Part shown: piece after piece, positions 7,147 to 59,377 of the stretch
Numbering within the stretch: position 1 is the first letter of the stretch
Layout: the number at the start of each line of letters is the position of its first letter
Assembly: GCF_000190575.1 (NCBI RefSeq)
Contig: NC_015164.1
Span: forward strand, 1,550,001-1,614,000
Direction: 5' to 3'
DNA length: 64,000 nt
Source: Phocaeicola salanitronis DSM 18170
Lineage (GTDB): Bacteria; Bacteroidota; Bacteroidia; Bacteroidales; Bacteroidaceae
Notes under the pieces: model-generated
The model's input: only the letters and a program-made list of their open reading frames with translations
Database searches by the model: none
What the model was told of the DNA's origin: nothing
Program-made: the position numbers and the translations under genes

Positions 7147-7192
7147 GATTCCAAAATTAATAATTGACAATTAACCATTGACAATTGACGCA

Positions 7193-10384: not shown

Positions 10385-10472
10385 AGTTTAGATATACTGA
10401 AACTTTAGTTTCAATGCACTGAAACTAAAGTTTTAATGCGCTAAAACTCCAGTTTCAACCAGCAGAAACCAA
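10385..10472. repeat. Array A: four 22-bp dyad units
   Basis: Four units begin at 10385, 10407, 10429 and 10451, exactly 22 bp apart. Each has the form AGTTT(C) - 8 bases - GAAAC(T) - 2 bases, so each unit is itself an imperfect inverted repeat. The middle two are nearly identical and the outer two are more diverged. The array occupies 88 bp between the terminator of the phosphate permease gene and the first MITE copy. See arrays B, C, D and E. Confidence 0.85.
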
Positions 10473-10505
10473 GCACGAAACCGCAAGCATCGTGCATAGC
10501 CCTCA

Positions 10506-10697
10506 GAAGCTGTTTTGAATTTATCGTGCGATGATTTGGGATGAGCTTTTGAGGCATTTTCGCTTCTGTGATGAGGAAGATAGCGGGCTATCTGACGAAG
10601 AACAGGAGCGGAAAGGACCAAAAAATCGCCCAAAGCACACACGAAAAAGGATACATCAAGCCAAGAAAAACTTTTTGAAGAAATTCAAAACAGCTTC
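10506..10697. mobile_element. MITE-like element, copy 1 (192 bp)
   Basis: A 192-bp element with perfect 17-bp terminal inverted repeats GAAGCTGTTTTGAATTT. It is flanked by the direct duplication TCA (10503-10505 and 10698-10700). It is nearly identical to the copies at 57522-57713 and 60244-60435. It has no transposase; an internal open frame of ~55 codons is shared by the copies but looks passive. The right-hand TCA is, on the minus strand, the TGA stop codon of the DUF4833 gene. Confidence 0.9.
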
Positions 10698-11261
10698 TCA
10701 GTCCGTTATCCGCTCCACCACCTCTTCCTTCGAAGAAAGGGCTTCTCCGTGAAGCTCCACATAGTCCACTCCCATCGGATTGTGCTCGCTTACCTTCACA
10801 TACAAGTATTTCAGAACCGCCTTCTTGCCGTCAATCGTAGTCTCGCATACGTAACGCTCTCCCCGCCGGCAAATCAGGAACTTCTTCCCCGAATAGGCGG
10901 TCAGCGTGACCGTACAGCTATTCTCCCCTTCCTCCACCACCTTATAGCCATACACCATCTTGCGCTGGAAAAAGCTCAATCCGTTCTTTTCTCCCATCCG
11001 CTCTTCCCGGTTCACCCAATACACGGACAGAGGCTTTTCCTTATCCAGCTTCCCGCCGACCAGGTTCACATCGTAACACACCAGGTTACGGTTGATGCTC
11101 CGGGAGATATGGAACAACCGTTGCGGGGTCAGATACAAATTGCCTTCCGTCTCTGCCATGCACAAGCACGCGCCCGCCCACAAAAAACACAATAAGAAAC
11201 AAGGAATAAGCACGTTACGCTTCCCTTTATCCAAAAGCCTTTTCAAATCCGTTGCCTTCAT
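10698..11261 (-). CDS. DUF4833-type exported protein
   Basis: A 187-residue protein with an N-terminal basic stretch and a hydrophobic segment ending in a likely signal cleavage (LCFLWAGACLCMAE). The mature part (LFHISRSINRNLVCYDVNL, then PLSVYWVNRE) matches my recollection of the DUF4833 family, whose function is unknown. Start ATG 11261 places the signal peptide correctly; the frame extends upstream to 11324 without support. The stop codon coincides with the 3-bp target duplication of a MITE insertion. It is divergent from the cyclophilin gene. Confidence 0.75.
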   Translation of the reverse strand: MKATDLKRLLDKGKRNVLIPCFLLCFLWAGACLCMAETEGNLYLTPQRLFHISRSINRNLVCYDVNLVGGKLDKEKPLSVYWVNREERMGEKNGLSFFQRKMVYGYKVVEEGENSCTVTLTAYSGKKFLICRRGERYVCETTIDGKKAVLKYLYVKVSEHNPMGVDYVELHGEALSSKEEVVERITD

Positions 11262-12212: not shown

Positions 12213-12315
12213 TGAAGAATGAGGAATGAAGAAACAACGTTCGGCGTAAGCCAATGAAGAATCGCTTCGCCCGCATGGAAAATTCTTCATTCTTCATTCT
12301 TAATTCTTCATTTAT
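12213..12315. repeat. GAAGAAT-type intergenic repeat
   Basis: The spacer between the cyclophilin and M16 genes is made of AATGAAGAATGAGG direct units and their inverse ATTCTTCATTCTTCATT, able to fold into a long AT-rich hairpin. The same words recur at 20649-20672, 20800-20880 and 48600-48614. Confidence 0.7.
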
Positions 12316-15015: not shown

Positions 15016-15054
15016 AAAATTATTAATTATTAATTGTTAATTATTAATTGCAAA

Positions 15055-19173: not shown

Positions 19174-19884
19174 ATGGCAAAATTTAAACGTATCTTGTTA
19201 AAGTTAAGCGGCGAAAGCCTGATGGGAGAAAAGAAATACGGCATAGACGAGAAACGCCTGGGAGAATATGCCTTGCAGATTAAGGAAATACACGACATGG
19301 GCGTGCAGATAGGCATCGTTATCGGCGGAGGGAACATTTTCCGCGGGCTGAGCGGTGCCGGAAAGGGATTCGACCGCGTGAAAGGCGACCAGATGGGGAT
19401 GCTCGCCACGGTAATCAACAGCTTGGGGCTAAGCTCGGCATTGACGGCAAACGGGGTGAAGGCACGGGTGCTGACGGCTATCCGCATGGAGCCGATAGGC
19501 GAGTTTTACACCAAATGGAAAGCCATCGAAGCCATGGAGAACGGTGAAGTGGCCATCATGTCCGCCGGCACGGGAAACCCGTTCTTTACCACCGACACGG
19601 GTTCATCGCTGAGAGGCATCGAAATAGAAGCCGACGTGATGCTGAAAGGCACGCGCGTAGACGGCATCTATACCGCCGACCCCGAAAAAGACCCGACCGC
19701 CAAGAAGTTTGACGATATCACGTACGACGAAGTGCTGGCACGCGGGCTGAAGGTGATGGACCTCACCGCCACCTGCATGTGCAAGGAAAACAACCTGCCC
19801 ATCATCGTCTTCGACATGGATACCGTAGGCAACCTGAAGAAGGTCGTTGCCGGTGAAAATATCGGTACGCTGGTACATAATTAA
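19174..19884 (+). CDS. pyrH: UMP kinase PyrH
   Basis: A 236-residue amino-acid-kinase-fold enzyme phosphorylating UMP to UDP. Motifs: FKRILLKLSGESLMG at the start, GIVIGGGNIFRG, TGNPFFTTDTGSSLRG and GTRVDGIYTADPEKDPTAKKF. ATG 19174 (MAKFKRILLKL) is the family start; the frame opens at 19093 inside the terminator. It is usually next to frr in bacteria, but here a repeat-filled spacer follows. Confidence 0.97.
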   Translation: MAKFKRILLKLSGESLMGEKKYGIDEKRLGEYALQIKEIHDMGVQIGIVIGGGNIFRGLSGAGKGFDRVKGDQMGMLATVINSLGLSSALTANGVKARVLTAIRMEPIGEFYTKWKAIEAMENGEVAIMSAGTGNPFFTTDTGSSLRGIEIEADVMLKGTRVDGIYTADPEKDPTAKKFDDITYDEVLARGLKVMDLTATCMCKENNLPIIVFDMDTVGNLKKVVAGENIGTLVHN

Positions 19885-19911
19885 TAATTAATAATTAATA
19901 ATTAACAATTA

Positions 19912-20111
19912 ATGCCAATCAGGAGTTAAAAGGGAGTTAAAAGGGAGTTAGATGCCAATGCCTTTTGCACCGCTTCTGTAGAGACGATGTGCACATCGTC
20001 TCTACTACGTGGCATATACAAAATGCACAAATAAATACCGCGTGAAGTATAACTTCTGAACGAAGTGATAACTCCTGTGAAACATAACTACGTTTAACTC
20101 CTGATTCGCAT
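19912..20111. repeat. AATCAGGAGTTA repeat family, copy 1 (200 bp)
   Basis: A 200-bp repeat with outer arms ATGCCAATCAGGAGTTAAA and its near-inverse ending in GATTCGCAT, an inner palindrome GAGACGATGTGCACATCGTC, and GGGAGTTAAAA direct units. A second copy lies in opposite orientation at 54873-55124. Both are flanked by AT-rich words such as TTAATTATTAATTG. Confidence 0.85.
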
Positions 20112-20124
20112 TAATTGTTAATTA

Positions 20125-20646
20125 TTAATTATTAATTGTTAATTGAATTGTTGTCCCGTTCTTCATCAGCGGTATTTCCTTCAGGCGGCCGAGGGGAATC
20201 CCCCGAGCCTGCGCAATGATGTTCCGGTTTATCTGCCCGTGGGCAACCACCAGCACCGACTTGCCCTCGCAATGCTGCTTCAGATAGTCGATGCACTTGC
20301 CTGCGCGTGCGTAAAGCATGGCGGGGGTTTCGGCGTCTTTCGGGAAACAGGAACGGTCGACACTGTTTATCGACATCCCCGTCCAGCTCCCCCAGTCCAC
20401 TTCGCGGAACAGGGCATTCTTTTCCCAGGGCAAATCCCGGCTGCCTACCGCAAGGCGTACCGTATCTGCCACCCGTTGCAGGTCGCTGCTGACAATGGCA
20501 TCCAACGGAATGTTTTCCAAGGCCTTTCCCAAGGCTATGGCCTGCCGCTTCCCTTCTTCGGTGAGGTGTCCGGGCAAATGCCCTTGGAATATCCGGCTCA
20601 GGTTTTCTTCTGTCTGCCCGTGGCGGGCGAGGTATATAGTCAACAT
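20125..20646 (-). CDS. Histidine phosphatase family protein
   Basis: A 173-residue phosphoglycerate-mutase-like phosphatase. The catalytic RHG motif is in LARHGQTEEN (residues ~6-15) and the second catalytic His is in VVAHGQINR. The substrate cannot be inferred. ATG 20646 (MLTIYLARHG) is the natural start; the frame continues upstream through a palindromic repeat to 20778, which I reject. The 3' end runs into an AATTGTTAATTATTAATT repeat, which supplies the last few codons (TINN). Confidence 0.9.
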   Translation of the reverse strand: MLTIYLARHGQTEENLSRIFQGHLPGHLTEEGKRQAIALGKALENIPLDAIVSSDLQRVADTVRLAVGSRDLPWEKNALFREVDWGSWTGMSINSVDRSCFPKDAETPAMLYARAGKCIDYLKQHCEGKSVLVVAHGQINRNIIAQARGIPLGRLKEIPLMKNGTTIQLTINN

Positions 20647-20799: not shown

Positions 20800-20882
20800 A
20801 TTATTAAGAATGAGGAATGAAGAATCTTTTTTGAATGAAGAATGCTGTTTCTTCATTCTTAATTCTTCATTCTTCATTTAAA

Positions 20883-23715: not shown

Positions 23716-23788
23716 TTATTATAATTGACAAATGACAATTGACAATTCTTTCACATCGCCGCAGGGCAATTGTCAATTGTCCATTGTT
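23716..23788. repeat. AATTGTCAATTG-type intergenic palindrome
   Basis: ATTGACAAATGACAATTGAC and its inverse CAATTGTCAATTGTCCATTG flank a short GC segment between panB and the MFS gene. The same words form the 7147-7192 spacer before mreB. Confidence 0.7.
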
Positions 23789-27057: not shown

Positions 27058-27162
27058 GCCGAAGCCTTCGGAATGCCGCCGACACGTTTCCGCAAGGTTT
27101 CCGAGGCTTCCGGAGTGTTCCCGACACGTGTCCACAAAGTTTCCGAGACCTCCGGAGTGTTC
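27058..27162. repeat. Array D: five alternating 21-bp units
   Basis: Units begin at 27058, 27079, 27100, 27121 and 27142. Odd units resemble TCCGAGGCTTCCGGAGTGTT and even units resemble CCGACACGTGTCCACAAAGT, giving a 42-bp period. Both unit types are imperfect palindromes. The array starts immediately after the MATE stop codon, between convergent genes. Confidence 0.8.
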
Positions 27163-27329
27163 CCAACAATCATTAGAAACGCAGATTAACGCGGATTTCC
27201 GCAGATTATTTTAATTTTCAATTTTTCGATTTACGAAGTACGATTTAATGCTCAAATAGTAGATAGTAAATTGTCAAATAGTAAATTAAAATAATTTGTG
27301 TTTCAAAAAAACTGTGGTAAATCCGCCTG

Positions 27330-39592: not shown

Positions 39593-39611
39593 GATTTTTT
39601 AATTTGCTAAT

Positions 39612-39770
39612 GAGCTAATAAATAATGTGCTAATAAATAATGTGCTAATAAACAATGTGCTAATAAACAATGTGACAATAAACAATGAAATAATACGCTA
39701 ATTCATTATTACATTAGCACATTAGCACATAAGCACATTGGCACATTATTTATTATCACATTGTTTATTT
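39612..39770. repeat. 15-bp tandem repeats forming a hairpin between queF and queC
   Basis: Five direct units of about 15 bp (GTGCTAATAAAYAAT), starting near 39612, 39627, 39642, 39657 and 39672, are followed by their inverse ATTAGCACATTAGCACATAA. The whole spacer can fold into a long AT-rich stem within the operon transcript. Confidence 0.8.
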
Positions 39771-43109: not shown

Positions 43110-43542
43110 TTGAAATATTCACCACAGAGCTTTTGGGTATGGATTTGTGCATTTCCTGCATGTTACACACCTTCTACATTTGATGGCATATACAAGAGTA
43201 AGACGGTAAGGAACATTCATTTTTGCATATAGGTCGTATCTTTGTTTCAGCAGGCATACTTTTACGTTCTTGATATCAAAACCGTACGGTTTTGAATTGG
43301 AAACCGTACGTTCTCAATATGGAAACCGTACGGTTTTCATATCGAAACCATAAATGGAAGCCGTCTGAAACGATCATGTAATCCAAATGTGGAAACAACT
43401 GTTCCGGGGAGAAATCAGAAACTCACCACAGAGGGTACAGGGAAAATCTATTTTTCTCAATTTACGAAGTACGATTCCATATCAAAATAGTAAATTGCCC
43501 AATCGTAAATTAAAAACCCCTGCGTCCTCTGTGGTGAACAAA
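43110..43542. other. 433-bp spacer between convergent nth and CoA-transferase genes
   Basis: Contains array B (43264-43351) and a CCACAGAGGGTACAGG / CCTCTGTGGTG palindrome with inner AATTTACGAAGTACGATT and CGTAAATT arms (43425-43540). No gene seen. Confidence 0.7.
43264..43351. repeat. Array B: four 22-bp dyad units
   Basis: Units start at 43264, 43286, 43308 and 43330, exactly 22 bp apart. Each runs ACG(G/T)TTT - AT-rich centre - AAACCGT, so each unit is an imperfect palindrome and the junctions form AAACCGTACGGTTT. The total of 88 bp and the architecture match array A although the sequences are unrelated. Confidence 0.85.
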
Positions 43543-57240: not shown

Positions 57241-57328
57241 GAACATAAGTGATACGCCTGACTCACTTATGTAAATCACCCGACTCACTTATGTTAAACG
57301 GGCAACTCACTTATGTTCGTCAAAACGC
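57241..57328. repeat. Array C: four 22-bp units
   Basis: TCACTTATGT starts at 57263, 57285 and 57307, exactly 22 bp apart, each followed by 12 variable bases; the first unit (57241) carries the inverse ACATAAGTGA. Total 88 bp, the same size and period as arrays A and B with unrelated sequence. Confidence 0.8.
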
Positions 57329-57802: not shown

Positions 57803-59377
57803 ATGGCAGTAACAGCAGAAGATATACAGAAATTATTAAGGGATTTGGAGAATGACAGTGTGGAACGTACTATTTCAACCAACAACACCGACAAGTTCGG
57901 ACAGGCTATTTGTGCCTTTGCCAACGATTTGCCGAACAACAACCGTCCGGGATATTTAATTATCGGTGCGAAAGATAACGGAGAAGTCCTTCCCATTCAA
58001 GTAACAGACGAATTGCTCAAAAACATTGCAGCCATCCGTACCGATGGCAATATTCAGCCACAACCGTCTATGAGCGTTCAGAAAATAACGCTTCCTAAAG
58101 GCGATGTCGTGGTAGCAGAGGTATATCCTTCACAATTTCCCCCAGTAAGATACAAAGGACGAGTATGGGTAAGAATCGGACCGAGAAAAGGAACGGCCAA
58201 CGAAGATGATGAACGGCGGCTATACGAGAAACGTGCTGCCCACATCAAAACTTTCGACGCAATGCCTTGCATGGGTGCAACCGTAAACGATTTGGACACC
58301 AACGTTTTCAAACAACAGTATTTGCCTAAGGCCATACCTGCCGATGTTTTGAACGATGACCGGCGTGATGTAAAGATACAACTTCAATCGCTTGGGTTCT
58401 TTGATACCCGTTATGACTGCCCTACGTATGCAGGTATTCTATTCTTTGGGAAAAATATAGAGCGGTTTCTTCCTGGCGCATATATTCAGTATGTGCGCTT
58501 TGGTGACAAGGGACGAGCTTCAGAGATAAAAAGCGAATACAAGTTTGCCGGAAATCTCTGCAAGGTACTCTACCAATTAGATACATTTGTAGATACAGCA
58601 ATCACCAACCGCCGTCCCGTACCTGTCAGTGCCCTCAGAGAAAAGACCGTGATGGACTATCCGCACTGGGCTACACGAGAACTACTGATGAATGCGGTTT
58701 GCCACCGTACATACGAAAGCAACGGCCCTATTCAGTTCTACCAATACGATGACCGCATTGAGATAATGAATCCCGGTGGATTATATGGCAAAGTCAATGA
58801 AAAAAACTTTCCATTGGTAAACGATTACCGCAATCCTATCGTGGCGGAAACCATGAAAGTGCTGGGGTTTGTCAACCGTTTTAGCCGTGGTATACTTCGT
58901 GTGGAAGAAGAGTTAAAAGAAAATGGCAACGGTAAACCTGAGTTCTGTCTGAACCTTGATACTGCTTTTATGGTTATAGAACATATATCTTCATCTTCAA
59001 ACGAAAGTGAAGGTGTAAATGAAAGTGTAAATGAAGGTGTAAATGAAAGTGTAAATGAAGGTGTAAATGAAAGTGTAAATGAAGGTGTAAATGAAGGTGT
59101 AAATGAAAGTGTAAATGAAAGTGTAAATGAAAGTGTAAATGAAGGTGTAAATGAAGGTGTAAATGAAAGTGTAAAAGTTTCGGCAAACGAATCGGCTATC
59201 TTGTCCATTCTGAAAAGCATGCCACAATCAACTTATAAACAACTTGCAGAATCACTGGGTCTGAGTGAATCTACGATTTACAGAACGATTGACCGCTTAA
59301 AGAAAAAAGGAGTGATCAAACGTCAAAATAGTGATAAAAAAGGTTCTTGGGTGATTTTAGCGGACAATGTGAAGTAG
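57803..59377 (+). CDS. AlbA_2 / HATPase_c_4 protein with winged helix and repeat linker
   Basis: A 524-residue protein. Residues ~15-140 match the AlbA_2 (Schlafen-like, formerly AAA_4) domain (FANDLPNNNRPGYLIIGAKDNGEV, VRIGPRKGTANEDDERRLYEKR). Residues ~280-390 match an HATPase-like part (RELLMNAVCHRTYESNGPIQ, DRIEIMNPGGLYG, RFSRGILRVEEEL). Residues ~403-458 are a tandem ES/GVN tetrapeptide repeat. The C-terminus is a winged helix (TYKQLAESLGLSESTIYRTI). Such proteins are putative transcription regulators, some linked to defence; no specific role can be assigned. Confidence 0.85.
   Translation: MAVTAEDIQKLLRDLENDSVERTISTNNTDKFGQAICAFANDLPNNNRPGYLIIGAKDNGEVLPIQVTDELLKNIAAIRTDGNIQPQPSMSVQKITLPKGDVVVAEVYPSQFPPVRYKGRVWVRIGPRKGTANEDDERRLYEKRAAHIKTFDAMPCMGATVNDLDTNVFKQQYLPKAIPADVLNDDRRDVKIQLQSLGFFDTRYDCPTYAGILFFGKNIERFLPGAYIQYVRFGDKGRASEIKSEYKFAGNLCKVLYQLDTFVDTAITNRRPVPVSALREKTVMDYPHWATRELLMNAVCHRTYESNGPIQFYQYDDRIEIMNPGGLYGKVNEKNFPLVNDYRNPIVAETMKVLGFVNRFSRGILRVEEELKENGNGKPEFCLNLDTAFMVIEHISSSSNESEGVNESVNEGVNESVNEGVNESVNEGVNEGVNESVNESVNESVNEGVNEGVNESVKVSANESAILSILKSMPQSTYKQLAESLGLSESTIYRTIDRLKKKGVIKRQNSDKKGSWVILADNVK
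59009..59176 (+). repeat. 14-unit 12-bp coding tandem repeat
   Basis: Fourteen 12-bp units, GAAGGTGTAAAT or GAAAGTGTAAAT (last GAAAGTGTAAAA), encode E-G/S-V-N. The only internal variation is G versus A at one position (Gly/Ser). Being a multiple of three, slippage would lengthen or shorten the linker without a frameshift. Confidence 0.95.

Follow-up and report, generated by a model that had tools for sequence, protein, structure and literature searches.

REP/BIME and BOX elements are dispersed intergenic palindromes or modular repeats that are linked to RAYTs or to insertion sequences. Autoregulated dimeric regulators, for their part, have arrays of palindromic operators in helical register at their own promoters. 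How do the arrays described here compare with these systems? With REP/BIME and BOX they share dispersed, intergenic palindromes, but they differ in size, number and arrangement, and instead of RAYT or IS it is HU-HIG genes to which they are linked. Like operator arrays they are palindromes in helical register, at a protein's own promoter and at other sites. On the other hand, HU-domain proteins are concerned here, the dyads are mostly four, the pairs of paralog and array are many, and the dispersed sites are mostly without a promoter box.

Two systems of Porphyromonas gingivalis also bear comparison. The MITE BrickBuilt contains from 1 to 22.8 direct repeats, and its terminal inverted repeats (TIRs) resemble those of ISPg1 and ISPg9 of the IS5 family (PMC4596501). 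It too belongs to the Bacteroidales, is intergenic and dispersed, carries tandem imperfect repeats of ~22–23 bp between a leader and a tail, and occupies locations that are partly conserved between strains. It differs in being a single sequence family, with repeats that are not mostly four and, in the portion of the account at hand, no described linkage to paralogs of a DNA-binding protein (PMC4596501). Array A, the array of chief concern here, has four palindromic units at a period of 22, as against a variable number of 23-nt direct repeats, and is not a BrickBuilt; nor was a BrickBuilt-type TIR (GAGACC..) found in the array flanks inspected by eye. The HU protein PG0121 has some of the DNA binding characteristics of Escherichia coli HU and others that are distinct (PMC3969353). 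This HU-fold DNA-binding protein of the Bacteroidales was studied with a large, 77-bp inverted repeat, but the portion of that account at hand describes no four-unit, paralog-specific arrays (PMC3969353). Our literature searches returned no description of four-dyad arrays or of sites for HU-HIG proteins, a mention in the paper that defined HU-HIG being possible.

The window, the whole 64-kb stretch of Phocaeicola salanitronis DNA that was analysed, contains three arrays, none of them assigned to a strand. Array A (10385..10472) consists of four imperfect 22-bp palindromes of the type GTTTCA..TGAAAC with short linkers, the units starting at 10385, 10407, 10429 and 10451, and represents family A. 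Direct reading finds AGTTT at each of these positions and GAAAC or AAAAC 14 bp further on, spaced at exactly 22 bp; the words, coordinates and spacing given by the sequence-only reading are exact. We rejected a CRISPR array for this locus, where near-identical repeats would alternate with unique spacers of similar length; here only a few bp of linker separate one unit from the next. Array B (43262..43349) comprises four 22-bp palindromes of the type GTACGGTTT..AAACCGTAC and represents family B, whose arrays also occur upstream of the HU-HIG paralog HU2. Some 24 bp before it lies TATCTTTG (43237..43244, + strand), a Bacteroidota -7-type box, for which we take the consensus to be TAnnTTTG. The HU2 promoter has a box likewise, and array B of the window looks like a dispersed copy of the HU2 promoter region. 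Array C (57241..57328, family C) is built at a period of 22 from ACTTATGT words, one inverted (57243-57252) and three direct (57263, 57285 and 57307). Four 22-bp units had been proposed for B and C as well, and this is borne out, with B placed at 43262-43349 and the words of C partly inverted. Both A and B sit between convergent genes.

Might such arrays arise by chance? We scored lag matches over the 64-kb window at periods 12–39, comparing 66 pairs spanning 88 bp with a threshold of 40. Period 22 returns A (46), B (48) and C (43) and nothing else; the other periods returned (12, 13, 15, 18, 24, 30 and 36) are all due to three short-unit repeats of 12, 13 and 15 bp. At periods 21–23 the real window yields three matches at 38 or more and four at 36 or more, whereas 100 first-order Markov shuffles of the window, scored in the same way, yield none at 38 or more and one at 36. 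Four-unit 22-bp arrays thus exceed the shuffles, and a chance origin of the window arrays is rejected. The window holds no known structured RNA, in that no Rfam match rises above the gathering score.

The source genome comprises 4,308,663 bases in four contigs, the chromosome accounting for 4,242,803. We sampled 857 kb of it, made up of the window, 35 stretches anchored on MITEs and five that were unanchored. At a cut-off of 42 of 66, periods 21, 22 and 23 gave 5, 16 and 5 matches; elsewhere in the range 10–60, 28 of the 48 periods were empty and the remaining 20 had between 1 and 6 each. The sample was enlarged to 1.10 Mb of P. salanitronis and ~0.26 Mb each of three relatives, Phocaeicola intestinalis Sa1CVN1, Bacteroides sp. 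An322 and the metagenome assembly (MAG) SI.B2.metabat-bins.82. At the same cut-off, the four genomes gave 13, 7, 6 and 8 matches at period 21; 25, 11, 10 and 11 at period 22; and 5, 0, 0 and 0 at period 23. Periods 17, 19–20, 25–29, 31, 33–35 and 37–39 gave 0 or 1 per genome, and periods 14–16, 18, 24, 30, 32, 36 and 40 gave 0–8, those inspected being low-complexity or coding sequence. The 109 matches at periods 20–24, less 16 judged by eye to be low-complexity or coding, leave 93 arrays; as the stretches were mostly picked around MITEs or B/E matches, these counts are not genome frequencies. Array density can be gauged from the three arrays of the unselected 64-kb window and the single one in the five unanchored stretches (100 kb). 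In 400 kb of genomes G011 (5,163,189 bases) and G046, which we take to be P. vulgatus and P. dorei, there are four array-like matches; L236 among them is similar to the array that lies upstream of L335, a G011 gene. Four of the 25 arrays identified first overlap a mechanical open reading frame (ORF) of 91–261 aa, and the others lie between ORFs or touch the end of one. We conclude that the arrays are a class in gut Bacteroidales, mostly of four imperfect palindromes at a period of 21–23 bp and mostly intergenic; the fixed geometry proposed for three loci is general.

By eye the class divides into at least ten sequence families, several of them dispersed in up to ~24 copies. Families A (GTTTCA..TGAAAC), B, C and F (GCATACGGCTGC) have a period of 22, family E (TTCC-N7-GGAA) one of 21, and families D (AAGATTATTAATCTT), D2 (CGATTAGTAATCG) and G (a single array) one of 23. 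The sequence-only reading had described A, B and C as wholly different and their sequences as locus-specific. The three do differ from one another, but each belongs to a family that recurs at other loci; the sequence is specific to the family and not to the locus.

How constant is the number of units? By a chain rule, 69 of the 75 B and E arrays in the four genomes have four, a sample biased by the 88-bp lag scoring, which favours arrays of at least four units. The exceptions have five units (four arrays, of which L165 and L186 may be artefacts of the rule), three (one) or two (one, a shifted array). A pattern for family E that needs only two and a half units, run on a genome collection, found 44 stretches, all titled as Bacteroidales taxa and spanning several genera; four units occur in 38, three in 5 and five in 1. 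The array ends TTTTATA/TATAAAA likewise recur across several genera. Unit numbers, then, do not vary freely. Nor are they absolutely fixed: the sister species, P. intestinalis, has a further 22-bp unit in its orthologue of array B.

Which genes accompany the arrays? Clustering of the neighbouring genes brought out a protein of ~202 aa, assigned to PF18291 (an HU domain fused to a wHTH, Ig or Gly-rich motif); Pfam confirmed the assignment for three array-linked proteins. In all four genomes an E array lies ~25–55 bp upstream of the HU-HIG gene HU1, which is found beside a glnS-like gene (by eye) at three of four loci, and in all four a B array lies ~52 bp from the ATG of the paralogous gene HU2. 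E pairs always with HU1 and B with HU2, from which follows the prediction that other families will lie upstream of other paralogs. HU3 of P. intestinalis has a third array family upstream. G011 and G046 contain five pairs of paralogs with five further arrays, the d pair being weak (36 and 39). Family D is found upstream of an HU-HIG gene in P. salanitronis (45) and the SI.B2 MAG (42), family D2 in P. salanitronis (42, at 232 bp from the ATG) and An322 (35, with two clear units), and a TCGTCGGGGACAAACGA family upstream of two more HU-HIG genes of P. salanitronis. At least ten types of HU-HIG paralog have different arrays upstream (by eye). In P. intestinalis a truncated copy of HU1, which contains a stop codon, retains its upstream E array (L139/L307, C106).

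Of the 30 PF18291 loci of P. salanitronis and G011, 11 score at least 40 of 66 in the 330 bp upstream, and one more reaches 36; with HU1 and HU2 of P. salanitronis, the discovery genes, left out, 9 of 28 do so. By comparison, the 467 mechanical ORFs taken from unselected stretches, each 150 aa or longer, include none with that score (2 reach 38 and 10 reach 35; Fisher p 5e-15 against 11/30). The link is closest for proteins of 202–234 aa, six of seven passing the cut-off and the seventh scoring 36. The 19 loci below the cut-off take in all the ~90-aa HU genes and most of those of the ‘MINYS’ type; the only shorter ‘M-x-x-YS’ proteins above it are L335, L336 and L338.

Further species came from a tblastn search of a plasmid collection, which returned 13 places in 12 records (contigs of P. 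massiliensis, B. finegoldii and Pb. distasonis labelled as plasmids, and a Bacteroides plasmid), the best place of each record being scored. Eight of the 12 HU-HIG loci reach 40 or more, L387 and L388 score 38 and 39, and L385 and L390 score 35. The best period among 19–25 is 21 or 22 in all 12, although not all are independent of the first set: L379 and L380 are probably orthologues of the G011 paralogs a and b, whose arrays theirs resemble. L390 has three direct units and one inverted, as in families C and G. The HU-HIG gene of L387 (B. finegoldii), with its upstream repeat, is directly followed by a gene for an Rpn-family nuclease, and those of L382 and L384 (B. finegoldii) by genes for an ATPase or ATP-binding protein. 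Array B itself found no match in the plasmid collection. In IMG/VR the strict E pattern gave no match, and a scan for close relatives of HU1 gave three candidate stretches, none of them confirmed. Among the 44 pattern-found E loci an HU-like ORF occurs within the fetched stretch in only 4, none of these in Prevotella.

Where do the gene-proximal arrays sit? TAnnTTTG starts 16–33 bp ahead of the array in 18 of 30, a set that includes orthologues and five arrays scoring below 40; the background, taken 350–800 bp upstream in DNA that may be coding, has the box in 2 of 353 windows. From array end to ATG the distance is 29–102 bp in all but one of the 30. With the box before it and this distance after it, the array spans roughly the start of transcription and the early leader. 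All four HU2 arrays have the box, whereas the five HU1 arrays (the truncated copy included) have none that is exact, the sequence there being TATCTTTA, one base off. At dispersed arrays the box is mostly absent (E 0/27, A 1/21, C 0/6 and B 9/39, two of the nine, L163 and L183, possibly adjoining an HU2 remnant of which only the flank is seen). Capture of promoters does not fit most of these copies; the dispersed arrays are therefore not simply captured promoters.

The search with HU1 returned at least 120 proteins (120 of 143 listed). An AlphaFold model built from 44 of the listed proteins is weak overall, with a mean pLDDT of 58.5, rising to ~70–90 from about residue 141, where the order of elements at the C terminus is that of a winged helix. 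Winged-helix proteins are numerous among the best Foldseek matches of the model, none of which is better than E 0.0046; against the PDB there was none at E 0.001 and none that was significant. By eye, the putative recognition helix is identical in the HU2 proteins of both clades, whose arrays have arms in common, and differs among HU1, HU2 and HU3, whose array arms differ.

Do the arrays change between species? The HU1 array is conserved above its flanking DNA: between P. salanitronis and An322 it shows 4 differences in 78 sites, as against 88 in the 299 sites of its 150-bp flanks. With 30 differences in 79 sites (flanks 88 of 294), the HU2 array is not conserved between clades. The HU1 array has thus been held, while the HU2 array has shifted together with its dispersed copies. 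Within a genome the centres of family B agree. In P. salanitronis and P. intestinalis they are of the ATAT/GATA/AATT type, in An322 and the SI.B2 MAG of the GGAC/GAAC/AACC/GTAC type, in each case at the HU2 promoter and the dispersed copies alike. The E arrays of Prevotella have centres of the types GCACTGC, CCACTGC and GCAGTGG. Pooled over close pairs of one family, substitutions number 97 in 1343 array sites and 863 in 4982 flank sites, a rough ratio, as the flank figure includes poorly aligned stretches. At three loci one clade has an E array in the place where the other has a B-like one. The downstream flank stays in register at a MatE locus and both flanks do so at an ATPase locus, with a looser alignment at an ABC-transporter locus. 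The swaps that are in register (L109/L102/L105 and L141/L164/L189) may reflect gene conversion through shared arms. At L195 P. salanitronis has E and P. intestinalis B in the same intergenic region, which is otherwise replaced.

What of families A and C? Family A has ~20 sites in P. salanitronis, some of them weak, copies in P. intestinalis and the SI.B2 MAG, and one weak match in An322. Family C has ~23 sites in P. salanitronis, a similar number in P. intestinalis, a single one in An322 and none in the SI.B2 MAG. Of the 26 A arrays that could be classified, 13 are flanked by convergent genes, an arrangement that supplies 16% of the available intergenic bases (p 7e-5); the corresponding counts are 11/38 for B, 5/26 for E and 2/6 for C. 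No HU-HIG gene was found within the fetched 0.6–1.5 kb around any of the 28 A arrays covered in three genomes. No A or C array was found within 330 bp upstream of any of the 14 PF18291 loci of P. salanitronis. One C array lies ~460 bp upstream of an HU-HIG gene, not at its promoter, and none of four genes neighbouring arrays of families A, C, F and G proved HU-like when run through Pfam. Array A has the three to five palindromes at a period of 21–23 that mark an HU-HIG-linked array. An array of the same family at an HU-HIG promoter of the genome, as found for B, E, D, D2 and others, was not found for A. Families A and C would, by analogy, have HU-HIG cognates of the same kind, a reading that rests on shared form because no promoter-proximal cognate was found. 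For the same reason we liken array A to the HU-HIG-linked arrays and do not file it as a proven member.

How might the arrays work? We think it likely that they are binding arrays of sequence-specific HU-HIG dimers, autoregulatory at one site and dispersed at others. Such binding, predicted from the sequences, is the simplest explanation for the HU-HIG-linked arrays. The protein would consist of an HU domain followed, in the best-linked class, by a C-terminal winged helix, and each paralog would recognise its own palindrome. Four dimers would occupy neighbouring units on the same face of the helix, each some two turns from the next. Just downstream of the paralog's own promoter lies one array, in the order -7 box, ~10–15 bp, array, mostly 30–100 bp, ATG, and protein bound there would block or modulate its own transcription. 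The dispersed copies, mostly intergenic, would nucleate the same complex where they stand. We infer autoregulation, and this role for the dispersed copies, from the linkage and the promoter position. A family of binding sites for different proteins, suggested from the letters of three loci, is thus the reading we favour: different HU-like paralogs have different upstream arrays, to which binding is predicted.

The arrays might instead be the core of small non-autonomous repeats, that is, of a MITE-like or modular mobile element (leader, repeat array, tail) resembling BrickBuilt, with no regulatory role and with the copies upstream of HU-HIG genes as the source. Outer arms of ~45 bp common to B and E copies on both sides (by eye), many copies per genome with patchy presence, the added unit in P. 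intestinalis and the swaps of E for B-like arrays at the MatE, ATPase and, more loosely, ABC loci would all suit such an element. However, no target-site duplication, clean empty site or transposase was seen at the loci compared, and comparison of three loci with P. intestinalis showed replaced intergenic DNA or no clean alignment. The units are mostly four across genera, against 1 to 22.8 in BrickBuilt, unrelated families have one geometry, and each of the ten or more paralog types has a different array; we regard a mobile element as rather unlikely. The arrays could also be neutral minisatellites, or products of slippage that number four by chance. The same extra unit in P. intestinalis speaks for them, but hardly any credence is left by the sharp period peak at 21–23 across families, the four units of 38 of 44 E arrays, the empty result for 467 control ORFs and the lower rate of substitution, roughly measured, in arrays than in flanks.

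E. coli HU binds RNA, and the array could form the 5' leader of the HU-HIG mRNA, with four hairpins bound by the protein so as to control its own translation. The array often follows directly on the -7 box and so is probably transcribed, and many units could form hairpins (by eye). On the other hand, asymmetric centres are found pointing either way in a single array, a poor fit to RNA loops; dispersed A arrays favour the space between convergent genes; most dispersed arrays lack the promoter box; and the window is without an Rfam match. An RNA element appears improbable.

If the binding of HU-HIG dimers is accepted, what would it mean? A wider proposition, on which we stand evenly divided, is that in the Bacteroidales a large HU-domain family has turned sequence-specific. 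Its members would have private four-palindrome arrays at the promoter and at several to dozens of dispersed sites, protein and sites changing in concert between species, to give orthogonal, rapidly diversifying systems of which our searches found no counterpart. HU is the textbook non-specific nucleoid protein, and sequence-specific relatives would represent an unread layer of chromosome organisation or regulation in gut Bacteroidales. HU-HIG proteins and their sites could then be paired from sequence alone, and would offer both a test bed for a DNA-binding protein and dozens of dispersed sites changing specificity together and a set of separate protein–operator pairs for Bacteroides.

The window contains other repeats. 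A MITE of ~200 bp with 21-nt terminal inverted repeats (GAGAAGCTGTTTTGAATTT..) occupies 10502..10701, unassigned as to strand and 30 bp from array A, of which it is probably a neighbour and not a part. This ~197-bp element has at least 40 matches in the P. salanitronis genome. Arrays of families A and C are often near a MITE, an association biased by the MITE anchoring of the first P. salanitronis sample. The P. intestinalis copy downstream of array B has the 8-bp direct repeat AAATAGTA on either side, which is single in P. salanitronis. Tandem 7-bp repeats, with the units AATTGAC, ATTCTTC, AATTATT, ATAATTA, TTAATTG and TTCTTCA, occur at 7155-7189, 12282-12312, 15018-15049, 19877-19913, 20111-20145, 20849-20878 and 23723-23787. 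A two-copy 42-bp repeat, beyond the limit of period 39, lies at ~27079-27168, and 5.3 copies of a 15-bp repeat (AATGTGCTAATAAAC) followed by an 8-bp repeat at 39609-39687. Fourteen copies of a 12-bp repeat (59008-59175) lie within the ORF at 57803-59377, which has Schlafen AlbA_2, RecG-like and HTH matches; the reading frame is kept throughout.
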